From the IMG/VR virus record IMGVR_UViG_3300027881_000042, positions 1 to 36,519 of that record: 36,519 nt of DNA, one strand, 5' to 3'. Positions 6,790-31,806 of this stretch are shown here, one piece after another (the stretch's first letter is position 1; each line of letters starts with the position of its first letter). A program made the position numbers and the translations under genes. This DNA is from a virus. Below the pieces are notes generated by a model, which had not been told where the DNA came from, did not search any database, and saw nothing but the letters and a program-made list of their open reading frames with translations.

Positions 6790-6794
6790 CTTAC

Positions 6795-9811: not shown

Positions 9812-10176
9812 CAGTCCTCAATGTCGATGATCTGAATGCCCGCTCGCTGAAGCACGCCTATCGCAATCTCTGCATCTCGTTCTCTTACGAGCACAGACGT
9901 ACCACCGCCACCGAACGGCTCTTCCATCAAATTTTCGATGCCTTCCTTGTCGAGAGCGATTGTCGCTGCTCCCGCATCTCGATCAGAGAGTACAAGTCCA
10001 ACCGTACCGAATCCGACACGACCTAGATCGGTGGTACGGAACTGCTCTTTCTTCTTCCGCTTCTTCCGCTTCTGAGGAAAGGGCGCACGGATCGCAGGAC
10101 CGAGCGGGACATCCGTTGTCGAGATCATCCCGGTCGTCAGGTCCTCGCGTGTTGCCCACTCAAGCCATTGCTTCAT
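9811..10176 (-). CDS. Putative capsid-targeted internal protein with basic patch
   Basis: A 121-residue protein beginning M-K-Q-W-L-E-W-A-T-R-E-D, a clear leader with the likely cut after T-R-E. Residues 35-45 are strongly basic (Q-K-R-K-K-R-K-K-K-E-Q) and could contact packaged DNA. The rest is an alpha-beta domain with V-G-L-V-L-S-D-R and T-S-V-L-V-R-E-R-D-A-E-I-A-I, which resembles a small ACT/ferredoxin-like fold but is not identified. The start overlaps the stop of the 660-residue gene by 4 bases, so translation is probably coupled. Confidence 0.8.
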   Translation of the reverse strand: MKQWLEWATREDLTTGMISTTDVPLGPAIRAPFPQKRKKRKKKEQFRTTDLGRVGFGTVGLVLSDRDAGAATIALDKEGIENLMEEPFGGGGTSVLVRERDAEIAIGVLQRAGIQIIDIED

Positions 10177-12155: not shown

Positions 12156-12520
12156 TGGGACCCCACTGTAGGTCTACACTCGCCAATCGTCTTGTCCCAA
12201 ACCTGACCCTCGGGGCATGACTCCCGAGGATCAGGCGGGACCATTATCGTTCCGGCAGGTATCTCGCTCAGGTAGCGGATCGCCTCTTCGACCGATGAGC
12301 CTTCAACGATCATGGCTACCGCATGGTCGATGGCTTTGCCTTCCAAGCGGCCACCGAACCCCTGAATGAACTGCGCGACACGAGCACGGTTATCCGTTCT
12401 CACAGTCAACACATCGCCTGCCAGAGAGACAACCTGATCGCCCAAACGGTCTTCGATTGCAGTTGTCAACTCAATCCGTTCCGCTGGCGACACGCCACGG
12501 ATATTCGCTGTCACCAACAT
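12152..12520 (-). CDS. Small modular protein: helical motif plus one Cys mini-repeat
   Basis: A 122-residue protein. Residues 1-60 form an alpha-beta unit of unknown family. The recurring helical motif follows (A-I-D-H-A-V-A-M-I-V-E-G-S-S-V-E-E-A-I). The C-terminus is a single Cys mini-repeat (C-P-E-G-Q-V-W-D-K-T-I-G-E-C-R-P), the same unit found once in the next gene and five times in the 843-residue protein at 31799-34330. It overlaps the next gene by ATGA. It may once have been part of that gene, or the two products may act together. Confidence 0.8.
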   Translation of the reverse strand: MLVTANIRGVSPAERIELTTAIEDRLGDQVVSLAGDVLTVRTDNRARVAQFIQGFGGRLEGKAIDHAVAMIVEGSSVEEAIRYLSEIPAGTIMVPPDPRESCPEGQVWDKTIGECRPTVGSQ

Positions 12521-16764: not shown

Positions 16765-17064
16765 CTACGTGAGTTCGCCAGAGTCAGGCCCGAGTCTGCT
16801 CAGATCACTCTGAAGGATCGGTTTAACCTTCGCTGCCGCCGTATGTGCGTTTACGTCTTCCATCAGGTCGAGCACGAACTGGTACGCCGCGAAGATGTCC
16901 CAATCAAGCTGTGTCCCTATGCTACTCACAGCCCTTTGCCAACTCGCCTGATCTTCGGGCGCAAGGGCTTCTTGCTTGGGCGGCTGCTTCTGCATCTGCG
17001 GACGCCGAGCCCGGCCTTCAATGAAAACCTCGGGTGCCTTGCTTGCCCATGCCATCCAACTCAT
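16765..17064 (-). CDS. Small putative capsid-targeted internal protein
   Basis: A 99-residue protein when started at the ATG at 17064, which overlaps the stop of the upstream gene by 4 bases (ATGA), the standard arrangement here. The frame is open further upstream but that would add an overlap of about 50 bases. It begins M-S-W-M-A-W-A-S-K-A-P-E-V-F-I-E-G, a weaker version of the leader in which the W-A-S-K-x-P part matches the protein at 24334-25098; the cut might follow F-I-E. A Gln/Pro linker leads to a helical domain (A-A-Y-Q-F-V-L-D-L-M-E-D-V). Confidence 0.75.
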   Translation of the reverse strand: MSWMAWASKAPEVFIEGRARRPQMQKQPPKQEALAPEDQASWQRAVSSIGTQLDWDIFAAYQFVLDLMEDVNAHTAAAKVKPILQSDLSRLGPDSGELT

Positions 17065-17435
17065 GTCAGCCTCGCTATCATTTCCCAACGCCCCGATCCC
17101 ATCTCCTGCCACGACACCGAGAGCATTGAGTTGTCGATCTCGATAGGAGAAAACGGATCGTCCCGGTTCGAGAAGGCAACGTCGAACGTCTTCGGTGGCC
17201 TTCCAAACGAATACGTATCCATCGCGTTGAAGCCCTGCCCGGTGACCTCGATACCGTGCTGTTCGAGCGTATCGGTAATCGCGTTCAGACCTATACCGAT
17301 GCTGTCAAAAGGACGGTTGCCATCGAGGCCCTTCTGAGACATGAGCGCGTTCACTCGCTCGCGCAATCCCCGGTCGAGGGTTGACGCCTTCTTAGCTTCG
17401 TGCTTCAGCGCCCACTCTAGGTAGGACCTCTTCAT
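17061..17435 (-). CDS. Putative capsid-targeted internal protein
   Basis: A 124-residue protein beginning M-K-R-S-Y-L-E-W-A-L-K-H-E-A, one of the best copies of the leader; here the leader itself ends in K-H-E, linking it to the internal KHE motif. Residues 15-35 are helical. The rest is one copy of the recurring 'GF...W' type module: L-N-A-I-T-D-T-L-E-Q-H-G-I-E-V, strands, and G-S-G-R-W-E-M-I-A-R. Predicted mature size is about 111 residues. It overlaps both neighbours by 4 bases. Confidence 0.85.
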   Translation of the reverse strand: MKRSYLEWALKHEAKKASTLDRGLRERVNALMSQKGLDGNRPFDSIGIGLNAITDTLEQHGIEVTGQGFNAMDTYSFGRPPKTFDVAFSNRDDPFSPIEIDNSMLSVSWQEMGSGRWEMIARLT

Positions 17436-17818: not shown

Positions 17819-18279
17819 CGTTCTGTCGGTGGTGTGTCGCCTACCTGTCGGGCGATCCCAAGAGAGTCGGTGCAGAAGCGGAGCAGGCTGATCTCACCCA
17901 CACGCATCCGGGCGAGAAGTTGCGCTTGATCTGCGAGGCAACGGTCGGTGAGCATGATGAGTTTGATGTCACCGAAGTCTTCTCTCATCGCACGCTGCTC
18001 GACCTGCACATCTTCCATGATCTCTGTGCGAGCCCGGCGTCCCACATCTTTCACAGCCTCGATGGAGTCGAACTGAAGTTGCTCCATTTCGTGATAGTCG
18101 TCCTGCTCTTCACGAACTACTTCAGCAGTGTCATGCGCCACTTCCCGCATCTCGATCTGTTGGTACTCCGCTGGCGAAAGGTACTTCCCGCCGACCCAAT
18201 TGATTATCGCGAAGAGAGCGGCAACGATTACGCCGATGGCTGTGATCGCGCCTGCTGTCTTCTTCAGGTCGATCTTCAC
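17815..18279 (-). CDS. Membrane-anchored coiled-coil protein (spanin-like?)
   Basis: A 154-residue protein with an N-terminal basic start, one membrane segment (about 9-27) and a long charged helical domain (residues 35-115, many Glu, Gln, Arg) followed by two Cys-containing stretches (D-R-C-L-A and R-F-C-T-D). This topology, a short cytoplasmic end with a periplasmic coiled coil, is that of inner-membrane spanin subunits. No overlapping lipoprotein gene is present inside it, so the identification is weak. It overlaps the neighbouring genes by 4 bases on both sides. Confidence 0.75.
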   Translation of the reverse strand: MKIDLKKTAGAITAIGVIVAALFAIINWVGGKYLSPAEYQQIEMREVAHDTAEVVREEQDDYHEMEQLQFDSIEAVKDVGRRARTEIMEDVQVEQRAMREDFGDIKLIMLTDRCLADQAQLLARMRVGEISLLRFCTDSLGIARQVGDTPPTER

Positions 18280-19058
18280 AGCCAGCCAAGCCTCTCGAAT
18301 GCGTCTCGGAGCGATGCAGCCCCAATCCCACCCTCACCCGCAGGACCACGCGCAGGACGACCGCCGATGAAGATTTGCCAGCCCTCGATCTCTGTCTCCA
18401 TCTCACCGCCTTCTCCCCAAATCGGGCCGACTTCGATCATTCTTCGCTCAGACGGGTTACCGGCCAAGCTCTGCAAGGCGACCCACTCATCGAAGTGGCC
18501 CTTCGCGCCTTGAAACGTGAACCCGTTCTGCAAGAGGAAGTTCTGCATCGGTAGGGACGTAAAGGCTTGCTCGTGCTTGAGCGTACCTTCCTGCATCACG
18601 AGATGCCGAGCCGGGATGTCCATCGTACCCTTCTCGGTTTCGATGGACACGATGTCACCGCCCTCTTTCGTCCCGATCACCTTGCCGGTAAGCGGAGCCG
18701 GTAGACCTTGCACGAGCACATGATGGCCGGGCTTGAACTCCGGCACCGCGCTCTCCACTACCTTCTTCGGGTCCGCTCCCTGAGCAACCTGTTCTACCAG
18801 TGCATCGATATTCATCTTCCGACTCTCCAACAGCGACAGGCTGTTCTGATGGAAGCTCATCTTCGTGCCGACGACATCCCGGCGTCCGAACTCATCGGGT
18901 GGGATGTTCCCCGAGGCTTCCTTGATCCTGACGACATACCATCCCGGCTTCGATGGCCCTTCGAGTCCGACCACAACACCGCGAAAGAAGAACCCCGGCC
19001 CGGACTGCCCGGAAACTTCATCGCCTACGCGCAACTCTCTTGTCACGAATCCGGTCAT
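18276..19058 (-). CDS. Modular cargo-like protein with two SH3-like barrels, helical motif and KHEQ
   Basis: A 260-residue protein with four modules: an SH3-like barrel (9-78, L-R-V-G-D-E-V), the recurring helical motif (84-105, I-D-A-L-V-E-Q-V-A-Q-G-A-D-P-K-K-V-V), a second barrel (108-157, F-K-P-G-H-H-V-L-V), then T-L-K-H-E at 159-163 before Q, and a C-terminal 'GF...W-I' module (L-Q-N-G-F-T-F-Q, E-G-W-Q-I-F-I-G-G, then a helix). The N-terminus M-T-G-F-V-T-R-E is not a standard leader. It is the first gene after a 117-base gap with an inverted repeat. Cutting at KHE would split it into pieces of 163 and 97 residues. Confidence 0.85.
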   Translation of the reverse strand: MTGFVTRELRVGDEVSGQSGPGFFFRGVVVGLEGPSKPGWYVVRIKEASGNIPPDEFGRRDVVGTKMSFHQNSLSLLESRKMNIDALVEQVAQGADPKKVVESAVPEFKPGHHVLVQGLPAPLTGKVIGTKEGGDIVSIETEKGTMDIPARHLVMQEGTLKHEQAFTSLPMQNFLLQNGFTFQGAKGHFDEWVALQSLAGNPSERRMIEVGPIWGEGGEMETEIEGWQIFIGGRPARGPAGEGGIGAASLRDAFERLGWL

Positions 19059-20397: not shown

Positions 20398-21057
20398 TCA
20401 CCACTTCTCCGGTTTGAATCCCCATCCCAATGGGTCACCGACTCCATGCCCCCACTCGATCCACCTATCGCGATGACCGTTCCTCGCGAAGAGGTCCAGC
20501 CACGGCCCCCGACACACCCGGATGACCTCGGAGTAAAATTTCGTCGGCTTCACCGAATGGCCCTCTGGCGGGGCGAAGATCACCGAGGGCATATCTCGGC
20601 GCTTCAGCTTGTTGTTCTTGCCCCTGACGGCAAGTATGGCCGTCTCGTGAGCGTTCCGTAGGTAGTACCCGAGGCCGATCCGTAAGGCTTCTTGCAAATC
20701 AAGGATCGGTCGAGCCTTTGTCGCTGACGGTTGAGCCCGCACCAGCCGGTACACTCCCCGAGGCCGGGCCACCGAGAGCTTCACCGTCTTCACCCATACC
20801 AACTGACCCACCGGGCGGTAGCCCCACGCCTCACAGACCTTGACGTGATCGCCCTTGTTGACGTGGTGCGTAGGGCACCACAACCACAGGTAGCCGTTCT
20901 TCATCGCGACCTCGGGAACCGGGAGCTTGCAAATCTGCTCCACGGTCAGGGTCGGATAATGTTCGCGGCTCCGGCTTACCTGCCGCTGCCACAGCCAGCC
21001 CTTCTCATAGGGCCACGGCGGGTCACATACGATTGTTCTGAAGCGTCTCGCGGGCAC
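20398..21057 (-). CDS. MT-A70 family adenine methyltransferase
   Basis: A 219-residue protein with the family signature: I-V-C-D-P-P-W-P-Y (D-P-P-W at 12-15, the catalytic N6-adenine motif), L-W-L-W-C-P-T (the 'lwlW.t' strand), G-Y-R-P-V-G-Q-L-V-W-V-K, and near the end F-Y-S-E-V-I-R-V-C-R-G-P-W-L-D-L-F-A-R (the 'K....ie......~lELFaR' end). It probably uses S-adenosylmethionine to methylate adenine in DNA, which could protect phage DNA from restriction. It is the only clear metabolic or modification enzyme in the window and is set among putative internal proteins. It lacks the leader, so I see no sign that it is packaged. Confidence 0.92.
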   Translation of the reverse strand: MPARRFRTIVCDPPWPYEKGWLWQRQVSRSREHYPTLTVEQICKLPVPEVAMKNGYLWLWCPTHHVNKGDHVKVCEAWGYRPVGQLVWVKTVKLSVARPRGVYRLVRAQPSATKARPILDLQEALRIGLGYYLRNAHETAILAVRGKNNKLKRRDMPSVIFAPPEGHSVKPTKFYSEVIRVCRGPWLDLFARNGHRDRWIEWGHGVGDPLGWGFKPEKW

Positions 21058-21092: not shown

Positions 21093-22373
21093 CTATCTCC
21101 TACTCTGCTCGACGGAGCGAACACCAGCATCGAACGTGCTGAGGTTCGGTCCAGCCGCCAGCTTGATCCTGTTGAACGTCATCACCCAAGCCCCGGTTTC
21201 CCGGTTTACCTGCAACTGCACACCGGCCAGCGAAGACCCATCGTGGGGCTGGTGGAATAGTTGCGGGCCGAATGATAGTGAACCGGGACTCGGGATGAAA
21301 CCGTAGCGACCGACGATCATCGACGCATCGATCTGCTCGTGCTTCATGCTCTCACCGAGGAACTGTCGCAGGTCCTTCTCTAGCTCCTTCGCTCCGGTGC
21401 CCCGTGCAACTGGATCGGGTGCGTCCTTCCGATCAACCGGGAAGTCGTAGATCACCCACGAGCCGTTGTTCTTGACCTCGACGCCTGCGACCACCTTCGT
21501 CGGAGTGCGCTTGATCCAAAGAGGTACGCTGTACTGGCCGGAGACGGTATCGAAGCCACGCGCTCTCAGCACGCGCTCGATGTCCGGGTCGATGGCCTGC
21601 TCGTGCTTCGCGGCTTCAAGACCGAGGGCACGCATCGCAGCACTCGGGTTCGGGTGCTCTGCTATCGTCTCGAACATATCGAGGACATCCTGAACCTCTT
21701 GGGGATGCAGACCGCCATCGTCAAGAATCTCAGCAGCCTCTTCCATCGTGAACTCATCTTCCTTGAACGCATCCCATGCGGTCGCAAGGAGTCGAGCACC
21801 GAACTTCGCCTTCGCAGTACCGAGGTCAGTGACCCGCTGCTGCTCGTGTTTCGCGGACTCGGTGAAGTCTGAGAGACGCACGTTCGCCACGGTCGTCACG
21901 CCGCCCGACTGACCAGCCCGGTTCCTGATAGAGACGGGATCGCCAGCCTGCGCATTCGTCTTGAGCCAGCGCAATGCCTCATCCGCTTTGCCGATGAACT
22001 CCATCTCGCCGCCGAAGAAGACGTTCCATGCGCCCGGATCGAACGCATCTGGAATGACTTCCCATCCGCCTGACGGACTGCTGCCGAGTGCGGGCATGAA
22101 CCCAAACTGCTCTGCCCTCAACGCGGAGACAGGGACCTCAGCCACGCCGAAGATCGCGGTGCCGCTCTCGGAGATGTCGGCCATGTTGCCCCGAACAGCC
22201 ACGACTATCGCGCCCTTCGAGTTGATCGTCTTCACGAGCTTCAGGTACGGCGGTGCGCCAGCGCCCCTCGCCTTCAGTTCGGGGTCGCCCATGTTGACCT
22301 TGACGCGCATCCCCGGCTGAAGCGTGACGCTCTCGCGGTACGCCCTCTGTTGCATCCAACCGATGTTGCTCAT
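21093..22373 (-). CDS. Four-module polyprotein with three KHEQ sites
   Basis: A 426-residue protein and the clearest polyprotein of the set. It starts M-S-N-I-G-W-M-Q-Q-R-A-Y-R-E, a second leader type shared with the gene at 22705-23016. An SH3-like barrel (19-86) and a 'GF...W' module (87-140) follow. K-H-E-Q occurs at 175-178 (T-E-S-A-K-H-E), 256-259 (L-E-A-A-K-H-E) and 344-347 (G-E-S-M-K-H-E). The pieces between sites are 81, 88 and 80 residues. Piece two is helical and includes M-E-E-A-A-E-I-L-D-D-G; pieces three and four are further alpha-beta modules (R-A-R-G-F, G-S-W-V-I; V-G-R-Y-G-F, G-A-W-V-M). The start overlaps the upstream stop (TGATG). Confidence 0.88.
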   Translation of the reverse strand: MSNIGWMQQRAYRESVTLQPGMRVKVNMGDPELKARGAGAPPYLKLVKTINSKGAIVVAVRGNMADISESGTAIFGVAEVPVSALRAEQFGFMPALGSSPSGGWEVIPDAFDPGAWNVFFGGEMEFIGKADEALRWLKTNAQAGDPVSIRNRAGQSGGVTTVANVRLSDFTESAKHEQQRVTDLGTAKAKFGARLLATAWDAFKEDEFTMEEAAEILDDGGLHPQEVQDVLDMFETIAEHPNPSAAMRALGLEAAKHEQAIDPDIERVLRARGFDTVSGQYSVPLWIKRTPTKVVAGVEVKNNGSWVIYDFPVDRKDAPDPVARGTGAKELEKDLRQFLGESMKHEQIDASMIVGRYGFIPSPGSLSFGPQLFHQPHDGSSLAGVQLQVNRETGAWVMTFNRIKLAAGPNLSTFDAGVRSVEQSRR

Positions 22374-22705
22374 CAGAATGCCCTGTTCTCTAGTGCTCGC
22401 ATGAAGGACGGGTCCTTCAGAGCCTCGAACATTCTCGCGCCTGTAAGAGCCGCCCCGTGTGGAGTCATCTTCCCGATCTGATCCATGACGGTTGAGATGT
22501 TGCCGTTGATGAACGACTCGATCAGTTCCTCGATCTCTCCCATCGCGACTTCATGCTTCGAGCTTGCTTGCTCCTGCACGAGTCCGACCGGGTGCGGAAC
22601 CTTCGACCCCTTCGCCTGCTGCGCTGGCCGGGCCGGTTGCTCCTGTCCGCGCATCTTCTCCCACGCTGTCATGGCGATGCGTAGGTCTTCAGCGATTGTA
22701 CTCAT
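22373..22705 (-). CDS. Small modular protein with QEQ and KHE sites and helical motif
   Basis: A 110-residue protein. The N-terminal 50 residues are polar, rich in Gln, Pro and Ala, and contain three candidate protease sites: R-G-Q-E-Q, L-V-Q-E-Q and S-S-K-H-E-V. The remaining part is the recurring helical motif (I-E-E-L-I-E-S-F-I-N-G-N-I) and another helical stretch. It looks like a long leader or linker followed by a single helical module. Starts and stops overlap with both neighbours. Confidence 0.8.
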   Translation of the reverse strand: MSTIAEDLRIAMTAWEKMRGQEQPARPAQQAKGSKVPHPVGLVQEQASSKHEVAMGEIEELIESFINGNISTVMDQIGKMTPHGAALTGARMFEALKDPSFMRALENRAF

Positions 22706-23016
22706 CAGATTCTCCTAGTCGGTGCCATGCCGGTGACATCGAAGGTGGCCGTGCCACCCAACTCATCGATGACGCCCCTGATCGCAGCCTGAAAATTCGG
22801 GTCCGAACCCGAGGTCGCCCCGAACGTCTGCAACTCTCGAATCGCCTGATCGACTTTCGCATCTTCTAGCAGCGCGATGACCGCACCAAGCTGTCGGGAA
22901 GTGCCGGGACTCAATCTCACCAGCCCCTTGAGCAAGCCGATGGCGTTGAAGACATTATCTGCTGTCTCCTTCATCATGCGCCTGTACGCCCGGCGCTGCA
23001 TCCAACCGATCATCAT
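22705..23016 (-). CDS. Small helical protein with the WMQRRAYR leader
   Basis: A 103-residue protein. The start M-M-I-G-W-M-Q-R-R-A-Y-R-R repeats the leader of the four-module polyprotein two genes downstream (G-W-M-Q-Q-R-A-Y-R-E). The rest is helical (A-I-G-L-L-K-G-L-V-R-L and A-V-I-A-L-L-E-D-A-K-V-D-Q-A-I-R-E-L), followed by a short variable end. AGGAG lies upstream of the ATG pair. I infer a packaged protein, with less certainty than for proteins with the E-W-A leader. Confidence 0.75.
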   Translation of the reverse strand: MMIGWMQRRAYRRMMKETADNVFNAIGLLKGLVRLSPGTSRQLGAVIALLEDAKVDQAIRELQTFGATSGSDPNFQAAIRGVIDELGGTATFDVTGMAPTRRI

Positions 23017-23053: not shown

Positions 23054-23563
23054 CTACGGGAACGCAGGGAACGTACAGACCCAATTGTTGCTGTTGCCCC
23101 GCCGCCTCTCACAGAACTGCTCGAAGATCGCAAGGGTGTCTGCTGGCTCGAAGATCGTATCGACCACGATGACGGTATCGACCACGATGAGCGTGTCGAT
23201 GACCGTCAAAGTGTCAACGATTGTGTCCCACACAAACAGCGTATCCACGAGGGTTACGGTGTCTGTGACGATCAGAGTGTCTACCACGATGACCGTATCC
23301 GTGACCAGCACGGTGTCCGTCACGAAGACGGTATCGACGCGGCTCGAATCAACGAAGATGGTGTCGGTCTGAGTGACTGTATCGACCCGAAGGATCGTGT
23401 CGAAGATGGTGACCTCTATGAAGGTCGTGTCACCTTTGACCTCGACTTCGGTGAGAGTGCTCCGGTCTACCTCACACGCTGCGAGCAGTAATGCAGCGGG
23501 CAGTGCGAGGATCGACACCAGCAGCAGCCTTTCGACTGCGTTCTTCACGCGGGCTAGATTCAC
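23054..23563 (-). CDS. Lipoprotein with Asp-Thr hexad repeats
   Basis: A 169-residue protein with a lipoprotein signal: basic start, hydrophobic segment (12-29) and lipobox L-A-A-C with Cys30. Residues 55-138 are a tandem repeat of about six residues, (V/I)-x-D-T-(V/I/L)-x, e.g. V-D-T-V-F-V-T-D-T-V-L-V, predicted to be an extended beta stack or solenoid. The C-terminus has two Cys (151 and 163) in a basic, aromatic segment. The lipid anchor points to a Gram-negative envelope. Possible roles are outer-membrane spanin, superinfection exclusion, or host-derived surface protein; none is proven. It lies between leader proteins. Confidence 0.85.
   Translation of the reverse strand: MNLARVKNAVERLLLVSILALPAALLLAACEVDRSTLTEVEVKGDTTFIEVTIFDTILRVDTVTQTDTIFVDSSRVDTVFVTDTVLVTDTVIVVDTLIVTDTVTLVDTLFVWDTIVDTLTVIDTLIVVDTVIVVDTIFEPADTLAIFEQFCERRRGNSNNWVCTFPAFP
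23150..23401 (-). repeat. Tandem degenerate 18-base repeats encoding the hexads
   Basis: The DNA coding for residues 55-138 of the lipoprotein is built of short units such as GTATCGACCACGATGACC and variants, roughly 18 bases each, with substitutions mostly at third positions. The unit number could change by slippage. The repeats are contiguous without spacers and the frame is kept throughout. Confidence 0.8.
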
Positions 23564-23564
23564 G

Positions 23565-24146
23565 TTACCCTACCAATCCGTCTATCGCTTGAAGGAGTTG
23601 ATCGAAGTAGACATCGTTGACTTCGCCTATGACCTTCCACGCGCCACCCGAGGCGTTCCCGGCGATGACATCGTAGAGGTCCCTGCCATTGAGCAGGATG
23701 ATGATCTTCCCGCCGCGTCCCATACCCGGCTTCGTTCCCCGGACCATGAACATGACGCCGCCGAGATGATTCCCCGGAATGCCGATCAGCGCGTGCCCCG
23801 CAGGGAGTCCCACGAAATCTTTAGCTCCCCACGAGGGAAGAGCCATCGGGTCCATCGCCTTGATCTGTTGCAGGATCGTATTGGCGACATCCTGCTCGTG
23901 CTTCATGGCCTCTACGAAGTGAGCGTCATCGATCCCCGAGCCCAAGAGCGCATGGAGCACATCGACGGAAACTGCCCGGTCAACGGCAATCGTAATCCCA
24001 TCGGGGTCGTCGGACACCACGCTGAATCGAGGCGTCAGCCCGGCGCTCACCATCGCATCTTCGACATCCCCCGATCCACAACCGGGGCAGCGAATCTTGA
24101 ACTTCTGCTCTTGGCGCAGAGCCCACTCCATGTACGCTTTCATCAA
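23565..24146 (-). CDS. Capsid-targeted polyprotein with two modules (leader RQEQ, internal KHEQ)
   Basis: A 193-residue protein. It begins M-M-K-A-Y-M-E-W-A-L-R-Q-E-Q, close to the T4 internal-protein leader; the cut is predicted after residue 13. Residues 20-80 start with C-P-G-C-G-S-G and form an alpha-beta unit (I-T-I-A-V-D-R-A-V-S-V-D-V-L-H-A-L-L-G-S-G). A-M-K-H-E-Q at 80-85 is the second site. Residues 85-193 form a second alpha-beta unit with K-I-I-I-L-L-N-G-R-D and G-A-W-K-V-I-G-E. Mature pieces would be about 71 and 109 residues. It overlaps the upstream membrane gene by 4 bases. Confidence 0.88.
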   Translation of the reverse strand: MMKAYMEWALRQEQKFKIRCPGCGSGDVEDAMVSAGLTPRFSVVSDDPDGITIAVDRAVSVDVLHALLGSGIDDAHFVEAMKHEQDVANTILQQIKAMDPMALPSWGAKDFVGLPAGHALIGIPGNHLGGVMFMVRGTKPGMGRGGKIIILLNGRDLYDVIAGNASGGAWKVIGEVNDVYFDQLLQAIDGLVG

Positions 24147-24337
24147 TCGCTCAACCTCTCTACGAAGCCGCCTACCGACTCAAGCCACTCCTTCGCTTCG
24201 GACGGAGTGGTGGGCAACAGGTCTGCCCACATGAGCAGGCCGATGATAATGATGATGAGAATCCACCACTTCATTCGCTCGAAGAAGTTCATCCAAAGCG
24301 CGAGGCGGTCCTGCTTCTGTGGCTGCTCTTCGGTCAC
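24143..24337 (-). CDS. Small single-span membrane protein
   Basis: A 64-residue protein with a charged N-terminus, a strongly hydrophobic segment at about 24-40 (W-W-I-L-I-I-I-I-I-G-L-L-M-W) and an amphipathic C-terminal helix. It might be a small holin or a membrane regulator. It is coupled by 4-base overlaps to leader proteins on both sides, so it is co-translated with putative cargo. Confidence 0.75.
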   Translation of the reverse strand: MTEEQPQKQDRLALWMNFFERMKWWILIIIIIGLLMWADLLPTTPSEAKEWLESVGGFVERLSD

Positions 24338-25098
24338 AGGATTCCCGCGTCTTCCAATTCGCGAGTGATGTTACCGACAGCGGCCCCGCCGCCAAGTTGC
24401 TGAAACAGTTTGTCTGTGAAGTCATCGAGCATCATTCCGCCCGACCAGAACGAGGAGATTAGGTCCACGATGAGATTCATGTCCATCTCACCGATCCTAT
24501 ATGTCTCCTTGATCCTTTTCAGGGCGGCCCGCTCGATGGCAGAGAAATCGGTTCCCTCGAAATCCTCGTGCTTCTTCGACTCACGCCGTAGGAGTTCGGC
24601 GTCACGCATCGAAGAGAAGTGCTGCTCGCCATCGTCACCGATGACCATGATCTCATCGCCGTCAACGTGCTCGACCTCGCCCTCGAACGGATTGAAGATG
24701 CCCATCTTGCCGATGTCGATCTGCACGATGTCACCGACCTTGATCCGCTGCTCGCGCTTCTGGCTCTCACCGACCGGGAGTCTCCCCACTACAGAGGCAT
24801 CCACAGGAACGATGAGCGTCTTCGTTGACATCGCGAACGTCAGGAGCCCCATTCTGGTCGCAAGGAATGACCCGGCATCTTCCGCGTTCAGGACAGCACT
24901 TGGCCCGGCCAAAACGACCCGTGGTGCCTCTATGCCACCGACTGTGGGCACGCCCTGTTCGACCTCAACGATCTTGTAGCGGATTTCCCTGATCGCAGCA
25001 AGGAACTCATCCACGTTCGAGGACGTGACCTTCTCTAACCCCTGTTCGAGAACCGGACGCGGCGTCTTGCTCGCCCATTCCTGCCATACTTTTCTCAT
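24334..25098 (-). CDS. Capsid-targeted polyprotein with SH3-like barrel and KKHE site
   Basis: 254 residues from the ATG at 25098, which overlaps the upstream stop by ATGA; a longer open frame to 25188 has no leader at its start and overlaps the upstream gene. The leader is M-R-K-V-W-Q-E-W-A-S-K-T-P-R-P-V-L-E-Q, cut expected after residue 18. Further candidate sites are Q-K-R-E at 113-116 before Q and S-K-K-H-E at 174-178 before D. The piece 19-116 is alpha-beta; 117-178 is an SH3-like barrel (I-K-V-G-D-I-V-Q-I); 179-254 is helical, with a variant helical motif and a terminal G-G-G-A-A-V-G-N. Confidence 0.87.
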   Translation of the reverse strand: MRKVWQEWASKTPRPVLEQGLEKVTSSNVDEFLAAIREIRYKIVEVEQGVPTVGGIEAPRVVLAGPSAVLNAEDAGSFLATRMGLLTFAMSTKTLIVPVDASVVGRLPVGESQKREQRIKVGDIVQIDIGKMGIFNPFEGEVEHVDGDEIMVIGDDGEQHFSSMRDAELLRRESKKHEDFEGTDFSAIERAALKRIKETYRIGEMDMNLIVDLISSFWSGGMMLDDFTDKLFQQLGGGAAVGNITRELEDAGIL

Positions 25099-25859
25099 CG
25101 TGCTTCCCACCACCAGAAGGTTGCGACACCCACCGCGACTCCGACGACTGTGATTATCACGCCGTCCGATACCTGCGGTGAGTACCAATCATGGCCGATC
25201 TCCGGTGGCTGGCACACGTCAGGCACCACGCTATCGACCTGCGCATCCATGTTGATCCACGCCGGGCCTTCGAGGTCTACGGCGGGTCGGTTGACCGCAA
25301 CGCAGCGAAGGTCCACGGCCACAGGCACGGGCCTGATGTTCATGTTCGAGAGGTTGAGGACAGGCACGACATCTACCACGCCGGGAATCTCGACCTCGAT
25401 CTCGCCATCGAATCGTTCATCCTTGACCGGAACCGTCACCTTACGCGGCGGCGGTATGACGATCACGGACTCAGGCAATACCTCGATCACGGTGTTGAGC
25501 TTCGTGATCGTATCGACCATCTGTTCCTCGACCTGAGCCAGCCGGGTCTGAGTCGATTCGAGCGTGTCCACCGTCTCGATCAAGACCTGCCTGACCGTGC
25601 GAACGGTGTCCTCTAGCTCTTCGATGATCTGCTGCTGTGAGGTCGCGAGCCCCCGAGCTTCGTCGCGCTCTTCGGTGAGGCTCGTAACCTGCTGGTTCGC
25701 ATCACCGAGATCGGTCGAGAGGTCGCCTGCTTCTTCCATGCTCATACAGAGTGCAACTGCCATAGCCGCGAGCACGATGGCGACGAACGCCCTCAGTCTG
25801 TAACGCTTGTACCTCGACTCTGCTGCTGTTGGAGACTTCTGATTTCCATCGGTATCCAT
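25095..25859 (-). CDS. Membrane protein with coiled coil and C-terminal span
   Basis: A 254-residue protein. A membrane segment lies at 22-40 after a basic cytoplasmic start, followed by a coiled coil (about 45-120, V-T-S-L-T-E-E-R-D-E-A-R-G-L-A), a proline-flanked beta region (P-P-P-R-K-V-T-V-P-V) with three Cys, and a second hydrophobic segment at the very end (about 233-250, followed by W-W-W-E-A-R). Two spans with a coiled coil between are unusual; spanin-like envelope fusion is one possibility, a structural role another. AAGGAG lies seven bases before the ATG. Confidence 0.8.
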   Translation of the reverse strand: MDTDGNQKSPTAAESRYKRYRLRAFVAIVLAAMAVALCMSMEEAGDLSTDLGDANQQVTSLTEERDEARGLATSQQQIIEELEDTVRTVRQVLIETVDTLESTQTRLAQVEEQMVDTITKLNTVIEVLPESVIVIPPPRKVTVPVKDERFDGEIEVEIPGVVDVVPVLNLSNMNIRPVPVAVDLRCVAVNRPAVDLEGPAWINMDAQVDSVVPDVCQPPEIGHDWYSPQVSDGVIITVVGVAVGVATFWWWEAR

Positions 25860-26214: not shown

Positions 26215-27681
26215 TTAGCTCTGGACGATCTTCCCCTTGATGTAGAAGTCGCCGTTGATGAGCTTCGTGCCATACCGCGAGGCGATACCCTTGCGAATCT
26301 TGAAGTCATCCAGACTCACAGTCGGGGTCGCGTAGAGCGGCACGTAGGGTGAATAGATGTAGCCCGTGTCGAAGAACGTCTGTCCTTTGTAGCCCATGAT
26401 GAAGTGGTCCTGAGAACCACCGGACAGAGTATCCATCGCCGGGTTGAGGTAGACTGCCCACCGGCTCCAATCACCGATCTTCCGAATGCCACGACCCTGA
26501 AACGATGCGTTGGGATCGGGAACGAAATCTTCCTGAGACTCGATGATGTCGGAGACGTTGTAGCCCACGACGATCCAGTTGGGATTCGCACGAGCGGTAC
26601 GCAGGTTCACGATGCTCGCACCGGAGATCAAGATGTCCTTGAAGGACGACTTATGATCGCGCCAACTGACGCCGGGCGCTGGGTTCTTGTTCCAGTCAGG
26701 AAGCTCGCTGGTGGGCGGATCGTAAGCCGCGTTCCAGAGAGCCGAGAGAATTTCGAGGTCGATCTCGAAGCGAAGCTCGGTGGTTACCTCAGCCGTCAGT
26801 TCGGTTTCGGCTTCCAGACCATGAATCGCCTTGAGGTCCTGCTGCGCCTCGAAGGACCAGCGTGTACGCAGCTTCCTCTCTTCAGCCGTGACCGGAGCTT
26901 TCGAGAGAACGATGTCCACCTGTGGAATGTTCTCCTGATTCTCAAGCTCGTAGTCGTAAGTCACGATCACGTCCACAGCAGCATCGACCGCTGCGGAGAA
27001 GCTGGTGTCGATTGCGCCCGTGGCGTAGTCGATGGTGTCAGCACCACCTGAACCAACGTCACCGGCAAGGTTGCCAGCACCATCGTCCTCGATGGTCTGC
27101 GTGCCAGCAGCCGAGGCGTGACTGATCGTCACCGTACCCGGCTTGATCGGCAACCACGAGAGGGTCGCTGTGATCTGCGCATTCGCGGCGATGATACCCG
27201 TACCGATCACTTCCTCATCGATGGTAGCCGATGAGTACGCCGCGTTCGGGTTCTCGAAGAGCTTCGTGCCCGCTGTTACCGTGCCCTTCGTGTTTGAGTA
27301 GATGTAGTCGAGGAAGAAGACCAACGATGCGGGTCCGCTCATCGGCTGTACCGACACGAGGTCGGTCGCGGCCAACTGAGGGAACAGCGCCCGAATGATC
27401 GGGAACGCGAACTTGTCGAAAGTCGCGATGTCGCCTGTCGTCAGGTCTTCCATGAATCCGCGAGCGTACCGCTTCTGGTTTTCCAGAAGCAGCGCGATGT
27501 CGCGGCGCATCTTGTTGTCTCGGATGCCTTCGAGAAGAGGCTCCCACCTGTAGGTGAGTTCTTCCTTGATCCGCTCCATCTCTTCCATGAAGACGTTGGA
27601 CTCGCTCACACCCGAACCGAGGGCGCGGGCCATTCCTCTTGCCTCACGGACGGGAGAGCGGCGTGCGCGTGTTCTACGCAT
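26215..27681 (-). CDS. Major capsid protein (T4 gp23-like, HK97 fold)
   Basis: A 488-residue protein. The N-terminal 55 residues are basic then helical, as in the removable N-arm of gp23. Residues 90-130 read F-A-F-P-I-I-R-A-L-F-P-Q-L, then V-Q-P-M-S-G-P (111-117), the hallmark of the gp23 family ('vqpM.gPt'). Further matches are W-S-F-E-A-Q-Q-D-L-K-A-I-H-G-L and, at the end, I-G-D-W-S-R-W-A-V-Y, then D-D-F-K-I-R-K-G-I-A-S-R-Y-G. The middle (about 195-260) is a Gly/Thr/Asp-rich insertion. The subunits form the capsid shell after cleavage by the protease from the adjacent gene. The cut site is not clear; V-R-E at 11-13 before A is one candidate. Confidence 0.95.
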   Translation of the reverse strand: MRRTRARRSPVREARGMARALGSGVSESNVFMEEMERIKEELTYRWEPLLEGIRDNKMRRDIALLLENQKRYARGFMEDLTTGDIATFDKFAFPIIRALFPQLAATDLVSVQPMSGPASLVFFLDYIYSNTKGTVTAGTKLFENPNAAYSSATIDEEVIGTGIIAANAQITATLSWLPIKPGTVTISHASAAGTQTIEDDGAGNLAGDVGSGGADTIDYATGAIDTSFSAAVDAAVDVIVTYDYELENQENIPQVDIVLSKAPVTAEERKLRTRWSFEAQQDLKAIHGLEAETELTAEVTTELRFEIDLEILSALWNAAYDPPTSELPDWNKNPAPGVSWRDHKSSFKDILISGASIVNLRTARANPNWIVVGYNVSDIIESQEDFVPDPNASFQGRGIRKIGDWSRWAVYLNPAMDTLSGGSQDHFIMGYKGQTFFDTGYIYSPYVPLYATPTVSLDDFKIRKGIASRYGTKLINGDFYIKGKIVQS

Positions 27682-27718: not shown

Positions 27719-28381
27719 TTACCCACGCTGCTCGAAATGCTCCACGAGCTTCCGGGTTCGGTCAACGATCTCGTTGCCAGACTCTTCCGAGCCTCTGTGC
27801 TCGACGCTCTCCATCACCGGCTGGGCGCGTGCCTTGCCCTTGATGGCTGCCAACACCTGTGCGTCACGCTGTTCCGTCTTCGGCTTGCCGCCGAACGTGA
27901 CGAGGGTACGATACAGGCTGTTAGCCTCGGAAAAGTTCTTGGCTTTCTTCAGTGCCTTCGCGGCTGCTTCCCGCTTCGGTGCGGGGAATCGCTGGATCAA
28001 ACTGGCGATGTGCTCACCGAGGTTGTTCTCATGCGACTCTGCGGCCTTCTTCAAAGAGGACTCTACGACCTTCGCGGCAGCATCTACGCGCTTGCGCTCG
28101 ATGGTCACCTGCCTGCGTGCCTCTTTGGCCTTATCGAGTGCCGCTTCAGCCAGCCGCTTCGCGGCATCGCTGTGCTTCGTCTCGCCACGGAGACGCGCCG
28201 TCATCCGCTCGATCATCTTCATCGCGGATTCGAGCTTCGCCACCATACCCGTACTTGACTCACGGGAGTAAGCGAGGTCGCGGCGCAGCTTGCCGTTCTC
28301 TTCTTCGAGTTCTCCCACCGTGGCGTTCAGAGTGCTCTCGATACGCTCGATGGCCGAACTTTCGGCTGCTGGACGCTCCAT
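27719..28381 (-). CDS. Nested scaffold protein (internal start)
   Basis: An in-frame ATG at 28381 (Met285 of the fusion) would give a 220-residue scaffold alone. It is mostly predicted coiled coil (R-I-E-S-T-L-N-A-T-V-G-E-L-E-E-E-N-G-K-L and onward) and ends in a mixed segment with E-H-F-E-Q. The arrangement parallels lambda C/Nu3, where an internal start makes the scaffold in excess over the protease fusion. The ribosome binding site described next supports it. Whether it is used is inference. Confidence 0.7.
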   Translation of the reverse strand: MERPAAESSAIERIESTLNATVGELEEENGKLRRDLAYSRESSTGMVAKLESAMKMIERMTARLRGETKHSDAAKRLAEAALDKAKEARRQVTIERKRVDAAAKVVESSLKKAAESHENNLGEHIASLIQRFPAPKREAAAKALKKAKNFSEANSLYRTLVTFGGKPKTEQRDAQVLAAIKGKARAQPVMESVEHRGSEESGNEIVDRTRKLVEHFEQRG

Positions 28382-29233
28382 GTTGTGATCTCCTGCTACG
28401 TGTTGAAGTTCATCCTTCTTTTTGCTCTTCTTCTTCGCATCCTTGTCCTTATCCTTCTTCCCATCATAGGCACCTGCCTCGATGGTGCTCTGGACACGAG
28501 CCCGAAGAGACTTCAACGACTCCTGCACTCTATCGTCATCTATCTTGCACGGCGATGATTCGCAGACCGAATCAAGGATGGTCTGATACGCCTCTAACTC
28601 TCTACCTGTTACGGGTGTGTCTTCCTGCTCTTCGTAGCGGTCGAGTCTTTCCTGCACCTGCCTCGCGAAGCGGTCGTAGTGCTCCGTGAGGTTCGCCACC
28701 GGGAAGGCCGCATCGACGGACGGCTCAACCACCATATCGAACCCGCCGAGGTCGAAGTTCTCATCGAGAATTTCGGTCTGGCCTTCTTGATGACTGTCAC
28801 CCCATCCGCGACTCGACGTACCGAGTCTGATCCCTGCCCTGAAGAGTCGCTTGAGGGTATCGCCTGCTGCGGTGTCGAGGATTTCCGACTTGCACCAGAT
28901 GGGAGTACCGCCGCCTTCGAGCTTCTGATCGGACAGAATCTTCATCTCGGTGGTGACGTGGCTGATCTCCTGCGGCGGAACGATGCCGTCCGCAGGGTGC
29001 CCGAGCATACCGACTAGCTGCCGGTGCTTGAGCTTCGACGCGAAGTCATCACTGCCCATCAGGTTCTCGAACAGCTTGAGCGGGTAGACTCGCCCGTTGC
29101 TGTTCTCCATGTCCGCGACCTGATGCACGCCACTGAAGGTCGATACCTTTTTGCCTTCGACCTCTTCTTCGGTAAAGTGTTGAAGGTCGAAGTGGCGAAA
29201 CTCGCTATAGTATTTCTTCGTTGCTGTCGTCAT
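27719..29233 (-). CDS. Prohead protease fused to scaffold
   Basis: A 504-residue protein. Residues 1-215 match phage prohead proteases of the T4 gp21 type (MEROPS S80): N-S-N-G-R-V-Y-P, L-V-G-M-L-G-H-P with the likely catalytic His79, S-H-V-T-T-E-M, and the G-T-S-S-R-G-W-G loop with the likely Ser at 140/141. A lysine-rich linker (about 265-278) leads into a long coiled-coil scaffold (285-504). The C-terminus contains V-M-E-S-V-E-H, close to the E-S-x-K-H-E motif of the cargo proteins. In T4 the protease and scaffold are separate genes (21 and 22). This enzyme is the obvious candidate to cut the leaders and KHE sites of the surrounding genes. Confidence 0.92.
   Translation of the reverse strand: MTTATKKYYSEFRHFDLQHFTEEEVEGKKVSTFSGVHQVADMENSNGRVYPLKLFENLMGSDDFASKLKHRQLVGMLGHPADGIVPPQEISHVTTEMKILSDQKLEGGGTPIWCKSEILDTAAGDTLKRLFRAGIRLGTSSRGWGDSHQEGQTEILDENFDLGGFDMVVEPSVDAAFPVANLTEHYDRFARQVQERLDRYEEQEDTPVTGRELEAYQTILDSVCESSPCKIDDDRVQESLKSLRARVQSTIEAGAYDGKKDKDKDAKKKSKKKDELQHVAGDHNMERPAAESSAIERIESTLNATVGELEEENGKLRRDLAYSRESSTGMVAKLESAMKMIERMTARLRGETKHSDAAKRLAEAALDKAKEARRQVTIERKRVDAAAKVVESSLKKAAESHENNLGEHIASLIQRFPAPKREAAAKALKKAKNFSEANSLYRTLVTFGGKPKTEQRDAQVLAAIKGKARAQPVMESVEHRGSEESGNEIVDRTRKLVEHFEQRG
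28390..28396 (-). promoter_or_regulatory. Internal Shine-Dalgarno for the nested scaffold
   Basis: GCAGGAG on the minus strand lies eight bases before the in-frame ATG at 28381. This is one of the best-spaced ribosome binding sites in the window, although it lies inside a coding region, and it decides in favour of the nested start. Confidence 0.7.
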
Positions 29234-29235
29234 CG

Positions 29236-30039
29236 TTAGAACCTCGCGGTCATTCCGACCATGCGGAGCCCACCTGTGAAGCTGACCTCAGCCGGTCCCT
29301 CGAACTTCGCTTCGTCCGCTGTCGCCTTGTCCAACAGTCCACGCATCTCCAACGTGTCGATCATCGACTCGAACGGTGCCCTCATGTCGATGAAGCCCAT
29401 CTCGATCTCATCATCAAGGTCCTCTTCCGAGATGTACCAGACGGTCTTGCCGGTCGCATCCTCGATGTGGATGTTCGCTTGCCCGCGCTCTTCGTAACCG
29501 CTGATGCTGAACGGAAGCTCGAACGGTGGTCGTCCGATCTCGACGTGCTCGTGCTTCTTCCCTTCGAGGTTCGCCCGGTCCCATCCACGGAGCCACGCAT
29601 CGAGCAATTCTTTCGCGCCACCACCTACAGGTCGTCCGGGGCCGATGAGAGCCATCAACTGCTGATCGACTGCTGGGACTCTCTGCTTACCTGCGCGGAA
29701 CGCCGCATCGCCAAGCTCTTCAGCCTGCCCTTCCGGGGTGGACGAACGGAACCCACGTACCTGCTCTTGCCTCGCACCAGCACGATCACGCGAGGCGATC
29801 ATGCCCTTGCCCGCCTTCTCCGTGATGTCCATGAGCGCCAGCGACCACTCGCGGTCGGTGACGTGCGGCGGCTTGAACTCGGTGACAGACCAGAGAGGGA
29901 CCATGCCGATGCGGATCATCGCCTTCTCGCTGTCGTCCATCTTGTCCCACGCCTTCCACGCGGCAGGCAGGGCTTCCTCTACCGATTCGGCCACCGGCTT
30001 CGGCTTGCGGCGTGCCCACTCCAAGAAGCCTTTCTTCAT
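29236..30039 (-). CDS. Capsid-targeted internal protein with KKHE site
   Basis: A 267-residue protein that begins M-K-K-G-F-L-E-W-A-R-R-K-P-K-P-V-A-E-S; the cut may follow A-E at residue 18. The N-terminal domain is helical (W-K-A-W-D-K-M-D-D-S-E-K-A-M) and contains A-R-Q-E-Q. E-G-K-K-H-E before H lies near residue 167, followed by an alpha-beta module (L-P-F-S-I-S-G-Y, A-N-I-H-I-E-D-A-T-G-K-T-V-W-Y-I, then a helix M-I-D-T-L-E-M-R-G-L-L). It directly precedes the protease/scaffold gene, so cargo and protease may be made together. Confidence 0.87.
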   Translation of the reverse strand: MKKGFLEWARRKPKPVAESVEEALPAAWKAWDKMDDSEKAMIRIGMVPLWSVTEFKPPHVTDREWSLALMDITEKAGKGMIASRDRAGARQEQVRGFRSSTPEGQAEELGDAAFRAGKQRVPAVDQQLMALIGPGRPVGGGAKELLDAWLRGWDRANLEGKKHEHVEIGRPPFELPFSISGYEERGQANIHIEDATGKTVWYISEEDLDDEIEMGFIDMRAPFESMIDTLEMRGLLDKATADEAKFEGPAEVSFTGGLRMVGMTARF

Positions 30040-30722
30040 CGTCCTTGCTCCTTCGCGAAGAAGTCCTCGGCCTCGCGGCCAAGCTCACCTTTGAGCGCAT
30101 AGCCCGGCCTGTCCATGTTGTCCACCGCCATGTCGAGCAGCGCATCGGAGAGCCCGAGGTTCATGTCGAAGCTCCGGTGGCTGCGCTGATCCGCGATGAA
30201 GAAACCTTCGTTGACGTTGTGGATCGACCAATCCCCACTGTCCTCGATCCAGACCTCGATAGCTCGGCCCTGCTCTAGCGCCCAAACCTCTTGCGTCGAT
30301 GTGTCGCCTACCGAGGGATCGGCAGGATGAACTTCCTTGAGGACGAAGCCCGAGTCCTTGAGCGTCTTCTGCACATCGCGGGGCGTGATCTCTGCGGTCT
30401 GCTCGTGCCGCAGCTTCGACTCGAACTGCTTGAACGCACCGCCGAAGATAGGATCGTCGGGGCTCTTGAAAATTCCACCGCCGCCGAAGTTGGCATCGGA
30501 GAACTTGAGCGCCGAGATCGGATAGGTCTTCGCGTGATCTTGTCCTGTGTCCGAGGCGAGCGTAACGAACATGAAGCCCGGCTTCGGTGATACGCCGGTC
30601 CTGATCTTCGCGACTGAGCCCGGACCATCGGGGGTCATCACTCCCATGCCCGCGATGTCGAGGTCAACCGAGAAGCCGCCAAGCTCCTTCTTCAGAGCCC
30701 ACTCTACGAATGACTTTCTCAT
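30036..30722 (-). CDS. Capsid-targeted polyprotein with RHEQ site
   Basis: A 228-residue protein beginning M-R-K-S-F-V-E-W-A-L-K-K-E-L, cut expected after residue 13. Residues 14-100 form a beta-rich domain (M-G-V-M-T-P-D-G-P-G-S-V-A-K-I) akin to the SH3-like barrels. S-K-L-R-H-E at 102-107 before Q is the second site. The 108-228 piece is a clear 'GF...W-I' module: V-Q-K-T-L-K-D-S-G-F-V-L-K, A-I-E-V-W-I-E-D-S-G-D-W-S-I, and a C-terminal helix. The protein ends A-K-E-Q-G-R, perhaps one more cut close to the C-terminus. Overlaps the next gene by 4 bases. Confidence 0.88.
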   Translation of the reverse strand: MRKSFVEWALKKELGGFSVDLDIAGMGVMTPDGPGSVAKIRTGVSPKPGFMFVTLASDTGQDHAKTYPISALKFSDANFGGGGIFKSPDDPIFGGAFKQFESKLRHEQTAEITPRDVQKTLKDSGFVLKEVHPADPSVGDTSTQEVWALEQGRAIEVWIEDSGDWSIHNVNEGFFIADQRSHRSFDMNLGLSDALLDMAVDNMDRPGYALKGELGREAEDFFAKEQGR

Positions 30723-30727
30723 CGTGT

Positions 30728-31501
30728 CTACTCGAACGGTGGTAGGTTGGGAGTCGGAGCCCGCCTGAGTTCAGCGTTCGGCATGATCGACTTCACGATG
30801 CTGAACACATCGTCCTCATCTTCCTCACTGATCGGAGTGATCTCGTACTCACCCATGTTCGGGAACGAGGTCACATCGACATCGATGTACTCAGCCCGGA
30901 TCGCTTGGACGACTCGCCTCGCATCCGCCTCGGTTCCTTTGAAGGCCGATACCTTTCCGAAGACCTGCTCGTGCTTCTTCGACTCGGGGTAGACGCCCAT
31001 CGAGTCGAGCTTGTCCATGAGCGTGTCGCGCCCGATGCCTTCGCCCTGCCCACCGCTGATAATCGTCCAGCGAGCGCCTTGCTTCGTGACGTGGATGGTC
31101 ATCGTGGGACCCGTCGGGTGCCACGGCTGAGGACTGATGCTAAGGGTCGCGCCTTGACCATCGGATGAATCCAAACCGAAGCCAACCGCACGCAGGTAGT
31201 CCACTGCCATCTCGTAATCCCAAGTCTGCTCGTGCTTCATGCTCTCCGAGACAGGCACAAGGTCACGCGCCTTCATGTGGACCTCTTTGCCGTCCTTGTC
31301 GAAGCGAACGACCGTCGAATCGCCGCGCATACCGGGTCCGATGACCAACCCCTCTTGCCCATCATAGAAGGCGGTGTGCGATGAGAGGGCACGGTTCCGC
31401 ATCGGATCAACTCTGACGCGAGTGCCGGGCGGCAACTGGACTTGTTCAACCTTCGGTCGGGGCTTGCGGCGAGCCCACTCTAGGAATCCTTTTCTCATCA
31501 C
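30728..31501 (-). CDS. Capsid-targeted polyprotein with two KHEQ sites
   Basis: A 257-residue protein. The leader M-M-R-K-G-F-L-E-W-A-R-R-K-P-R-P-K-V-E-Q predicts a cut after 19. K-H-E-Q follows at 89-92 (S-E-S-M-K-H-E) and 176-179 (E-S-K-K-H-E). This gives pieces of 72, 87 and 79 residues: an SH3-like barrel (P-P-G-T-R-V-R-V-D), a 'GF...W' alpha-beta module (Y-L-R-A-V-G-F-G-L, G-A-R-W-T-I-I-S-G-G), and a third small alpha-beta unit (V-S-A-F-K-G-T-E-A-D-A-R-R-V-V-Q-A-I). Together with the gene at 21093-22373 it is the best example of regular spacing. It overlaps the upstream gene by 4 bases. Confidence 0.9.
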   Translation of the reverse strand: MMRKGFLEWARRKPRPKVEQVQLPPGTRVRVDPMRNRALSSHTAFYDGQEGLVIGPGMRGDSTVVRFDKDGKEVHMKARDLVPVSESMKHEQTWDYEMAVDYLRAVGFGLDSSDGQGATLSISPQPWHPTGPTMTIHVTKQGARWTIISGGQGEGIGRDTLMDKLDSMGVYPESKKHEQVFGKVSAFKGTEADARRVVQAIRAEYIDVDVTSFPNMGEYEITPISEEDEDDVFSIVKSIMPNAELRRAPTPNLPPFE

Positions 31502-31806
31502 GATGCTCTCTTCTGAAGCGTTGGTATGCCCGTGTGCCTGCTGGTTTCGTCGGGGAACACAAGCAGGCGAGCAAGTAACTCAATCGTCTGCGCCTCATCG
31601 AGCTTCGGGTCGCCTGACATCGTGCCCAACTGACCCGAACCGCGTAGCGCCTCTAGCTGTCTCTTAACGAGGTCCCAAAAGACCGGCTTGCTAACCTGAT
31701 CCTCAGCCAGCTTGATAACCGTGATCGTATCGGGTTGGTCTGTGAATCGGACCCACGGCATACCCTGCTCGTGGACCGACCATTCGAGCCACGCTTCCCT
31801 ACTCAC
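31498..31806 (-). CDS. Small capsid-targeted internal protein
   Basis: 102 residues from the GTG at 31806, which overlaps the upstream stop by 8 bases; a longer frame from 31980 is open but would lie within the upstream gene. It begins (fMet)-S-R-E-A-W-L-E-W-S-V-H-E-Q, a good leader with the cut predicted after V-H-E. The remainder is an alpha-beta domain (M-P-W-V-R-F-T-D, T-I-T-V-I-K-L-A-E-D, then helices including L-L-A-R-L-L-V-F). Predicted mature length is about 90 residues. Confidence 0.82.
   Translation of the reverse strand: MSREAWLEWSVHEQGMPWVRFTDQPDTITVIKLAEDQVSKPVFWDLVKRQLEALRGSGQLGTMSGDPKLDEAQTIELLARLLVFPDETSRHTGIPTLQKRAS

Follow-up and report, generated by a model that had tools for sequence, protein, structure and literature searches.

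Repeated KHEQ motifs at module boundaries suggest head-cargo polyproteins in a distant T4-superfamily phage

Results

The window analyzed here, a fragment of viral DNA, comprises 36,519 bases, and its genes are named, where a short name is needed, by their first coordinate (e.g., w20107). The main genes lie on the minus strand and include those for a capsid protein, an S77 prohead protease, a tail sheath and a tail tube; the tail tube was labelled by reading its sequence, and the other three were identified by family searches. A T4 gp23-type major capsid protein is encoded at 26215-27681 (minus strand; PF07068, E = 1.6e-57), and an S77 (T4 gp21-type) prohead protease at 27719-29233 (minus strand; PF03420, E = 4e-11; phrog_207, E = 1.2e-27). 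The latter scores 43.2 bits with the curated S77 model PF03420, for which the cut-off is 27, and its long C-terminal half appears scaffold-like. The closest capsid proteins found are at most 44% identical to that of the window. An MT-A70 family DNA methyltransferase (20398-21057, minus strand) is encoded amid the genes treated below as cargo. At 23054-23563 (minus strand) lies a gene for a 169-residue putative lipoprotein, in which some twenty VDT/TDT-type repeats are flanked by a lipobox-like start and a Cys-bearing end. A family search gave no match for this protein, which we take to be perhaps a unimolecular spanin. By eye, the products of the neighboring genes 2711-3103 and 4125-4547 (minus strand) both begin with a helix-hairpin-helix-like IxGIGxATAxxI string.

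The gene at 21093-22373 (minus strand) is a real open reading frame for a 426-residue protein. As an earlier note on this DNA had reported, its product contains KHEQ at residues 175-178 (21840-21851), 256-259 (21597-21608) and 344-347 (21333-21344), in the contexts ESAKHE/Q, EAAKHE/Q and ESMKHE/Q, where the slash marks a predicted cut. A fourth predicted site, RAEQ at residues 86-89 (22107-22118, minus strand; SALRAE/Q), was added after the data had been seen. Together the four sites divide the candidate polyprotein into residues 1-88, 89-177, 178-258, 259-346 and 347-426, or pieces of 88, 89, 81, 88 and 80 residues. The note had also regarded the spacing as too regular for chance, which is borne out only in part. 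With the post hoc E88 included, none of 100,000 random placements was as even, and the pieces of the 30728-31501 protein (91, 87 and 79 residues) are evenly sized as well (P = 0.004). The three KHEQ motifs of the 21093-22373 protein alone are not unusually even (P = 0.09), and pieces with sites at both sides vary from 62 to 259 residues across all genes; the apparent regularity partly results from similar module size. The leader of the 21093-22373 protein, IGWMQxRAYR, recurs in the product of 22705-23016 (minus strand) and differs from the aromatic targeting type described below; it is perhaps another targeting peptide. The proteins of 21093-22373, 30036-30722 and 27719-29233 (minus strand) end in E-Q followed by two or three residues (VEQSRR, KEQGR and FEQRG, respectively), perhaps a C-terminal site.

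The motif extends well beyond this gene. Among the 52 window ORFs (11,805 residues), KHEQ tops the tetrapeptides in over-representation both by gene number and by count, followed by LEWA and EWAL-type strings. Its eight copies in five genes compare with a composition expectation of 0.03 and a shuffle mean of 0.046 (maximum 1 in 1000 shuffles), so that chance is excluded for the motif. The wider pattern [KR][HQ]EQ occurs 13 times (shuffle mean 0.245, maximum 3), and shuffling the 21093-22373 protein by itself produced at least one KHEQ in 0.1% of shuffles. A seven-position profile built from the eight KHEQ copies returned 15 rows with a shuffle expectation of at most 0.17. One row, EGAKHEI at residue 390 of w10173, was dropped although above noise, since it lies in a predicted-looking beta strand. 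The remaining 14 above-noise sites fall in nine genes: three in w21093, two each in w30728, w24334 and w5557, and one each in w23565, w31799, w18276, w8656 and w29236. The sites take the form E-S-x-K-H-E-Q, with the final Q replaced by G, D or H at some of them, and the core is free of large hydrophobic residues at all 15 listed sites. A looser pattern, phi-[KR]-x-E-Q, which adds SALRAE/Q (E88) to the 21093-22373 protein, occurs 18 times in 28 likely-cargo genes (1.0 expected, maximum 4 in 500 shuffles), against a single occurrence in the remaining 24 (0.58 expected); these counts are partly circular because the 28 genes were selected partly by motif, a choice of which the 52-ORF counts are free. 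The motif observation is real and wider than first reported, covering at least nine genes, and the motif is probably functional.

The other motif genes all lie on the minus strand. A second candidate polyprotein of 257 residues (30728-31501) begins with MRKGFLEW, a T4-like aromatic N-terminus of the targeting type, and has KHEQ at 89 (31226-31237) and 176 (30965-30976). The product of 30036-30722 begins with MRKSFVEW, also of the targeting type, and has RHE/Q at 105 (30399-30410), a site that scores below profile noise, so the gene is not among the nine. That of 29236-30039 has the targeting N-terminus MKKGFLEW and carries RQE/Q at 90-92 and KHE/H at 162-164. Gene 24334-25188 encodes KRE/Q at 144 (24748-24759) and KHE/D at 206 (24562-24573) with an SH3-like segment between them, and its targeting motif MRKVWQEW sits at an internal ATG. 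In 23565-24146, the targeting N-terminus ends in a site of its own, MKAYMEWALRQE/Q, and KHEQ follows at 82 (23892-23903); in 17061-17435 the targeting N-terminus likewise ends in the motif, as MKRSYLEWALKHE/A. Single sites occur at KHEQ 161 (18567-18578) of 18276-19058 and at KHE/G 278 (8848-8859) of 8656-9690, whereas 5557-6789 has RHE/Q 161 (6298-6309), KHE/G 279 (5944-5955) and QQE/F 352 (5728-5736), the last of which, taken alone, is within profile noise. Finally, gene 31799-34330 encodes an 843-residue multi-module protein with KHEQ at 400 and a weakly ART-like N-terminus. A repeated Cys motif, CPEGQ..N..TGECEP, with weak CBM_14 matches, is found in the products of 31799-34330 (five to six copies), 10173-12155 and 12152-12520 (minus strand).

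Within the 21093-22373 protein, one piece was modelled confidently. Residues 259-346 (21336-21599, minus strand), between two KHE sites, gave a pLDDT of 82.1 and a pTM of 0.73 in AlphaFold2 with a seven-row alignment. This module A is predicted as a helix, five strands and a helix, and it ends in KHE, over which confidence drops to 60. In a single-sequence model of the full-length protein (mean pLDDT 38.7), the same residues reached about 26-42 per 10-residue block and KHEQ 175-178 lay in a low-confidence helix; residues ~190-250, between the first two KHEQ motifs, were helical and moderately well modelled (pLDDT 67-80). The note had expected each piece to fold alone with its motif in an exposed linker. 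Folding alone is predicted for residues 259-346, with KHE at the low-confidence C-terminal edge, and the remaining pieces gave no confident model.

Look-alikes of module A were recognized in w30728, w30036 (after its RHE/Q), w18276 (after its KHEQ), w15265 and w19479, and in the whole of w20107. Five of these six come after E/Q; w20107 stands alone as a gene whose product starts (V)HQT. Leave-one-out HMM tests failed for module A, with only w30036 matched (0.0026), and the test for module B passed only for w18276. In split-half profile comparisons module A outscored both shuffled and natural decoys. Because its members had been selected by eye, the predicted structure is the better evidence. 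A fold search of module A in the PDB gave no match at E <= 0.001. A second PDB comparison gave a best Z of 6.2, with tied matches that include the T4 MotA C-terminal domain (Z 5.0-5.5), and no fold assignment is claimed. The best matches to viral models had E values of 0.01-0.1, and several of them are whole small phage proteins of 75-88 residues.

Two modules that belong to separate known phage families also border on sites. DUF5419 (PF17441), which has 254 Mycobacterium phage records, forms the C-terminus of w5557 (5560-5727, minus strand; E = 1e-10). Its homologue in phage Hexamo stands alone as a 58-residue protein with 52% identity to the w5557 module over 54 residues, and the Hexamo Met1 aligns with w5557 residue 355, directly after ESVQQE. 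The match of w5557 to a Zetzy record extends upstream of the DUF5419 start, although the Zetzy gene itself starts at MSFQEW; no DUF5419 was found in the six related viral records searched. In w29236, a phrog_19203 match covers residues 105-158, between RQE/Q 92 and KHE/H 164. Sites therefore coincide with module ends for module A, DUF5419 and phrog_19203. A short helical module C of ~25 residues (IDxAIxMLxxGxxPDEVVxxLL) is shared by nine window genes, among them w8656 and w18276 (residues ~83-107). It recurs in five ORFs of three related contigs (L090, L096 and L098) near capsid genes, at or near the N-terminus in four ORFs and at the C-terminus in one. From this placement we would guess that module C is perhaps a second head-targeting tag.

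These module contexts bear on whether the motif is simply a conserved edge of duplicated modules, copied along with them and without a function of its own. Module A is preceded by KHE, RHE or KDE before Q in five of its seven copies and by QEQE/Q in a sixth, as such copying would produce. The KHEQ codons are also more alike than expected: an identical run of 12 bases encodes six of the eight copies, where codon usage predicts 31% each (P = 0.013), and some linkers may accordingly be copies carried with their modules. However, the motif also precedes SH3-like, helical and other modules, follows modules of several types and ends unrelated targeting peptides, and it occurs in synonymous, K/R and H/Q variants, which makes copying a rather improbable account of the whole. 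A motif acting at the DNA level was considered as well and set aside, as each of the six exact 12-base copies reads in frame on the strand of its gene and other codons are used in the variants.

Aromatic-x-E-aromatic strings are likewise frequent, with 18 in the 52 ORFs against a shuffle mean of 4.3 (maximum 12 in 2000 shuffles). About twelve of them stand near a possible N-terminus, some requiring a later start codon; examples are MKAYMEWALRQEQ, MKRSYLEWALKHEA, MRKGFLEWARRK and, in the prohead protease itself, KKYYSEF. T4 ipII and ipIII start MKTYQEFIAEA and ipI starts MKTFKEF, with the same aromatic-x-E-aromatic spacing; according to the portion of PMC9026906 available to us, positions 4 and 7 are the T4 targeting residues, and positions 8 and 10 serve processing. 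In the window, the targeting peptides end in EWALRQE/Q twice, EWALKHE/A once and EWSVHE/Q once, and the P3-P1' residues shared with the linkers point to the same signal in both places. Five of the ten motif genes (the nine above noise and w30036) lack an aromatic targeting N-terminus. A similar N-terminal string starts at least one ORF in 20 of 76 related loci (raw count).

The likeness of the motif to the C-terminal half of the targeting peptides could also mean that it is a docking or packaging peptide, which binds scaffold or shell and is repeated for avidity in multi-domain cargo that stays uncut. Such a role would fit the conservation of positions -3 and -2 (E and S), which for a gp21-type protease lie well away from P1, as well as a probable capsid cut site that differs from the motif (see below). 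We nevertheless consider it unlikely: the P1 residue is always E, whereas P1' can be Q, G, D, H or A, modules end exactly at the motif, and E-Q dipeptides are in excess in the 28 partly motif-selected genes (49 against 24 expected), suggesting a constraint like that on a scissile bond.

The capsid protein offers a comparison for the specificity of the enzyme. Alignment with T4 gp23 and four other proteins places its likely cut region at FME/D, where relatives have LLE, LME or NE-type sequences. FME/D is T4-like and KHE is not. At P3 the preference of T4 gp21 is for Leu or Ile, whereas Lys or Arg occupies this position at all 14 above-noise sites, and L, I or F stands there in three of the 49 E-Q dipeptides of the 28 chosen genes, more rarely than elsewhere. 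The contrast of FME/D with KHE/Q, the missing Leu or Ile at P3 and the half of the motif genes without an aromatic signal all count against reading these genes as head-cargo polyproteins cut at the motif, as do the lack of relatives in the searches below, the similar KHEQ codons and the low-confidence helix at KHEQ 175-178. The enzyme may accept varied residues at P3 and P2, two signals may exist, or KHE may not be its site. The mismatch would also fit sites that a host protease cuts after ejection, or that are cut by some other phage enzyme encoded outside this 36.5-kb record, which is only a fragment. We regard this as very improbable, since no other protease was seen among the window genes searched and the site is common to head-targeting peptides, which gp21 removes in T4.

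Searches for relatives by capsid alignment gave two sets of 80 loci, with one locus in common, and one genome contig. Between window proteins and related loci, only capsid, protease, sheath, neck and head-tail proteins matched, together with one weak coiled-coil match of w25095. KHEQ repeats were found in none of 76 related loci (85 less 9 with fewer than 1,500 ORF residues) and in none of a further 15. In the viral_contigs collection, the 21093-22373 protein gave two pattern hits and no relatives, the capsid protein alone gave no match, and the DNA patterns EWAL[KR][HQ]EQ, EWALKHE and ESMKHEQ hit two, seven and one loci, all unrelated on reading. In the phages collection, the 21093-22373 protein had no match up to E = 1, and w31799 and w29236 had none. 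In PHROGs and Pfam the 21093-22373 protein matched nothing, known internal proteins included, and it had a single NCBIfam match, far below cut-off. Neither a named polyvalent domain family nor an embedded peptidase was detected in the 21093-22373 and 30728-31501 proteins, and models of defense systems matched none of ten cargo proteins.

Discussion

We propose, with somewhat better than even confidence, that at least nine genes of this phage, a distant member of the T4 superfamily, encode head-cargo polyproteins, 21093-22373 among them, and that its prohead protease cuts these after Glu. A polyprotein, as the earlier note had claimed, is the best-supported reading, and it draws its support from unlike modules, a piece predicted to fold alone, known families at sites and an S77 protease rather than from regular spacing. 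The precursor would be drawn into the prohead core, for about half of the genes by a T4-like N-terminal capsid-targeting peptide as judged from sequence. The S77 protease would then cut after Glu in phi-[KR]-[HQ]-E/Q during prohead maturation, acting both at the ends of some targeting peptides and in the linkers between modules. By analogy with T4, the released modules of ~60-120 residues might remain inside the head and pass into the host together with the DNA; the 21093-22373 protein would yield five products of ~80-89 residues. In the simplest account, several modules are packed per targeting event and are subsequently separated by the protease. The prohead proteases of T4, SPN3US and phiKZ cut C-terminal to Glu within a short motif that differs between lineages, and P1 Glu is common to the gp21-type proteases studied, as far as the accessible parts of PMC5694885 and PMC10052503 describe them. 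In T4, targeting peptides, which gp21 cuts off, bring internal proteins into the prohead, and some of these proteins are ejected (PMC9026906, in its available sections).

Several known systems resemble this scheme in part. The system of T4 IPI, IPII, IPIII and Alt resembles the window in aromatic-x-E-aromatic N-termini, seen in several window genes, and in having an S77 protease and a gp23-type capsid gene, a Glu cut being assumed here. T4 internal proteins are single products with one N-terminal cut, although Alt loses both an N- and a C-terminal piece (PMC5694885, in the part available), whereas the window genes have up to four predicted internal sites between modules. In addition, P3 is Leu or Ile at T4 sites and Lys or Arg in the window, and no sequence similarity to T4 internal proteins was found; judged by sequence, these genes are not of the T4 internal protein type. 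The inner-body (ejection) proteins of phiKZ and SPN3US, with the prohead protease gp245, are similar in that many head cargo proteins are cut after Glu at a lineage-specific motif. That of SPN3US is A-x-E, and specificity varies between lineages (available excerpts of PMC10052503 and PMC5694885). At 13 of the 14 sites, however, cutting takes off an N-terminal propeptide, and release of several folded modules is not reported in the available text of PMC10052503. Polyvalent proteins, multi-domain products thought to be packaged and injected, are similar in concept and have been compared with RNA-virus polyproteins (Iyer et al. 2017, PMC5512222). Their release is proposed to occur by embedded peptidases; for the window we propose a separate prohead protease, and no peptidase domain was found. 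Lastly, the anti-restriction proteins DarA, DarB and Hdf of P1 are packaged in the head and carry a targeting signal at the N-terminus. In the portions of the P1 literature available to us, they are described as one product per gene, matured by a different protease, and no repeated linker motif is reported. We found no paper describing cutting between the modules of phage cargo in a search that left subscription journals mostly beyond its scope.

If the proposal is true, several small proteins could be supplied to the virus head from a single gene. Phages would then have a polyprotein strategy for injected proteins, as RNA viruses do for theirs, in which the head protease does the processing and the capsid serves as reaction chamber. 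The specificity of T4-type proteases would be seen to drift while P1 Glu is kept, and small injected anti-defense candidates in long genes without similarity could be found by a simple rule at the sequence level. A more far-reaching version, to which we give a little less than an even chance, is that about ten genes of shuffled small modules are diced in the prohead into some thirty injected proteins, gp21-type specificity having moved to phi-[KR]-[HQ]-E/Q. Genes that stand alone would then be separate parts of the same kit; w20107, for example, starts HQT, as would a piece released by cutting. In one related locus (L036), the product of 6738-7244 (plus strand) has a targeting-like start, MKTFSEWLLES, followed by an ART-like RLYHQTSD segment, to which the start of the 31799-34330 protein shows a weak likeness (E = 0.003 in a single comparison).
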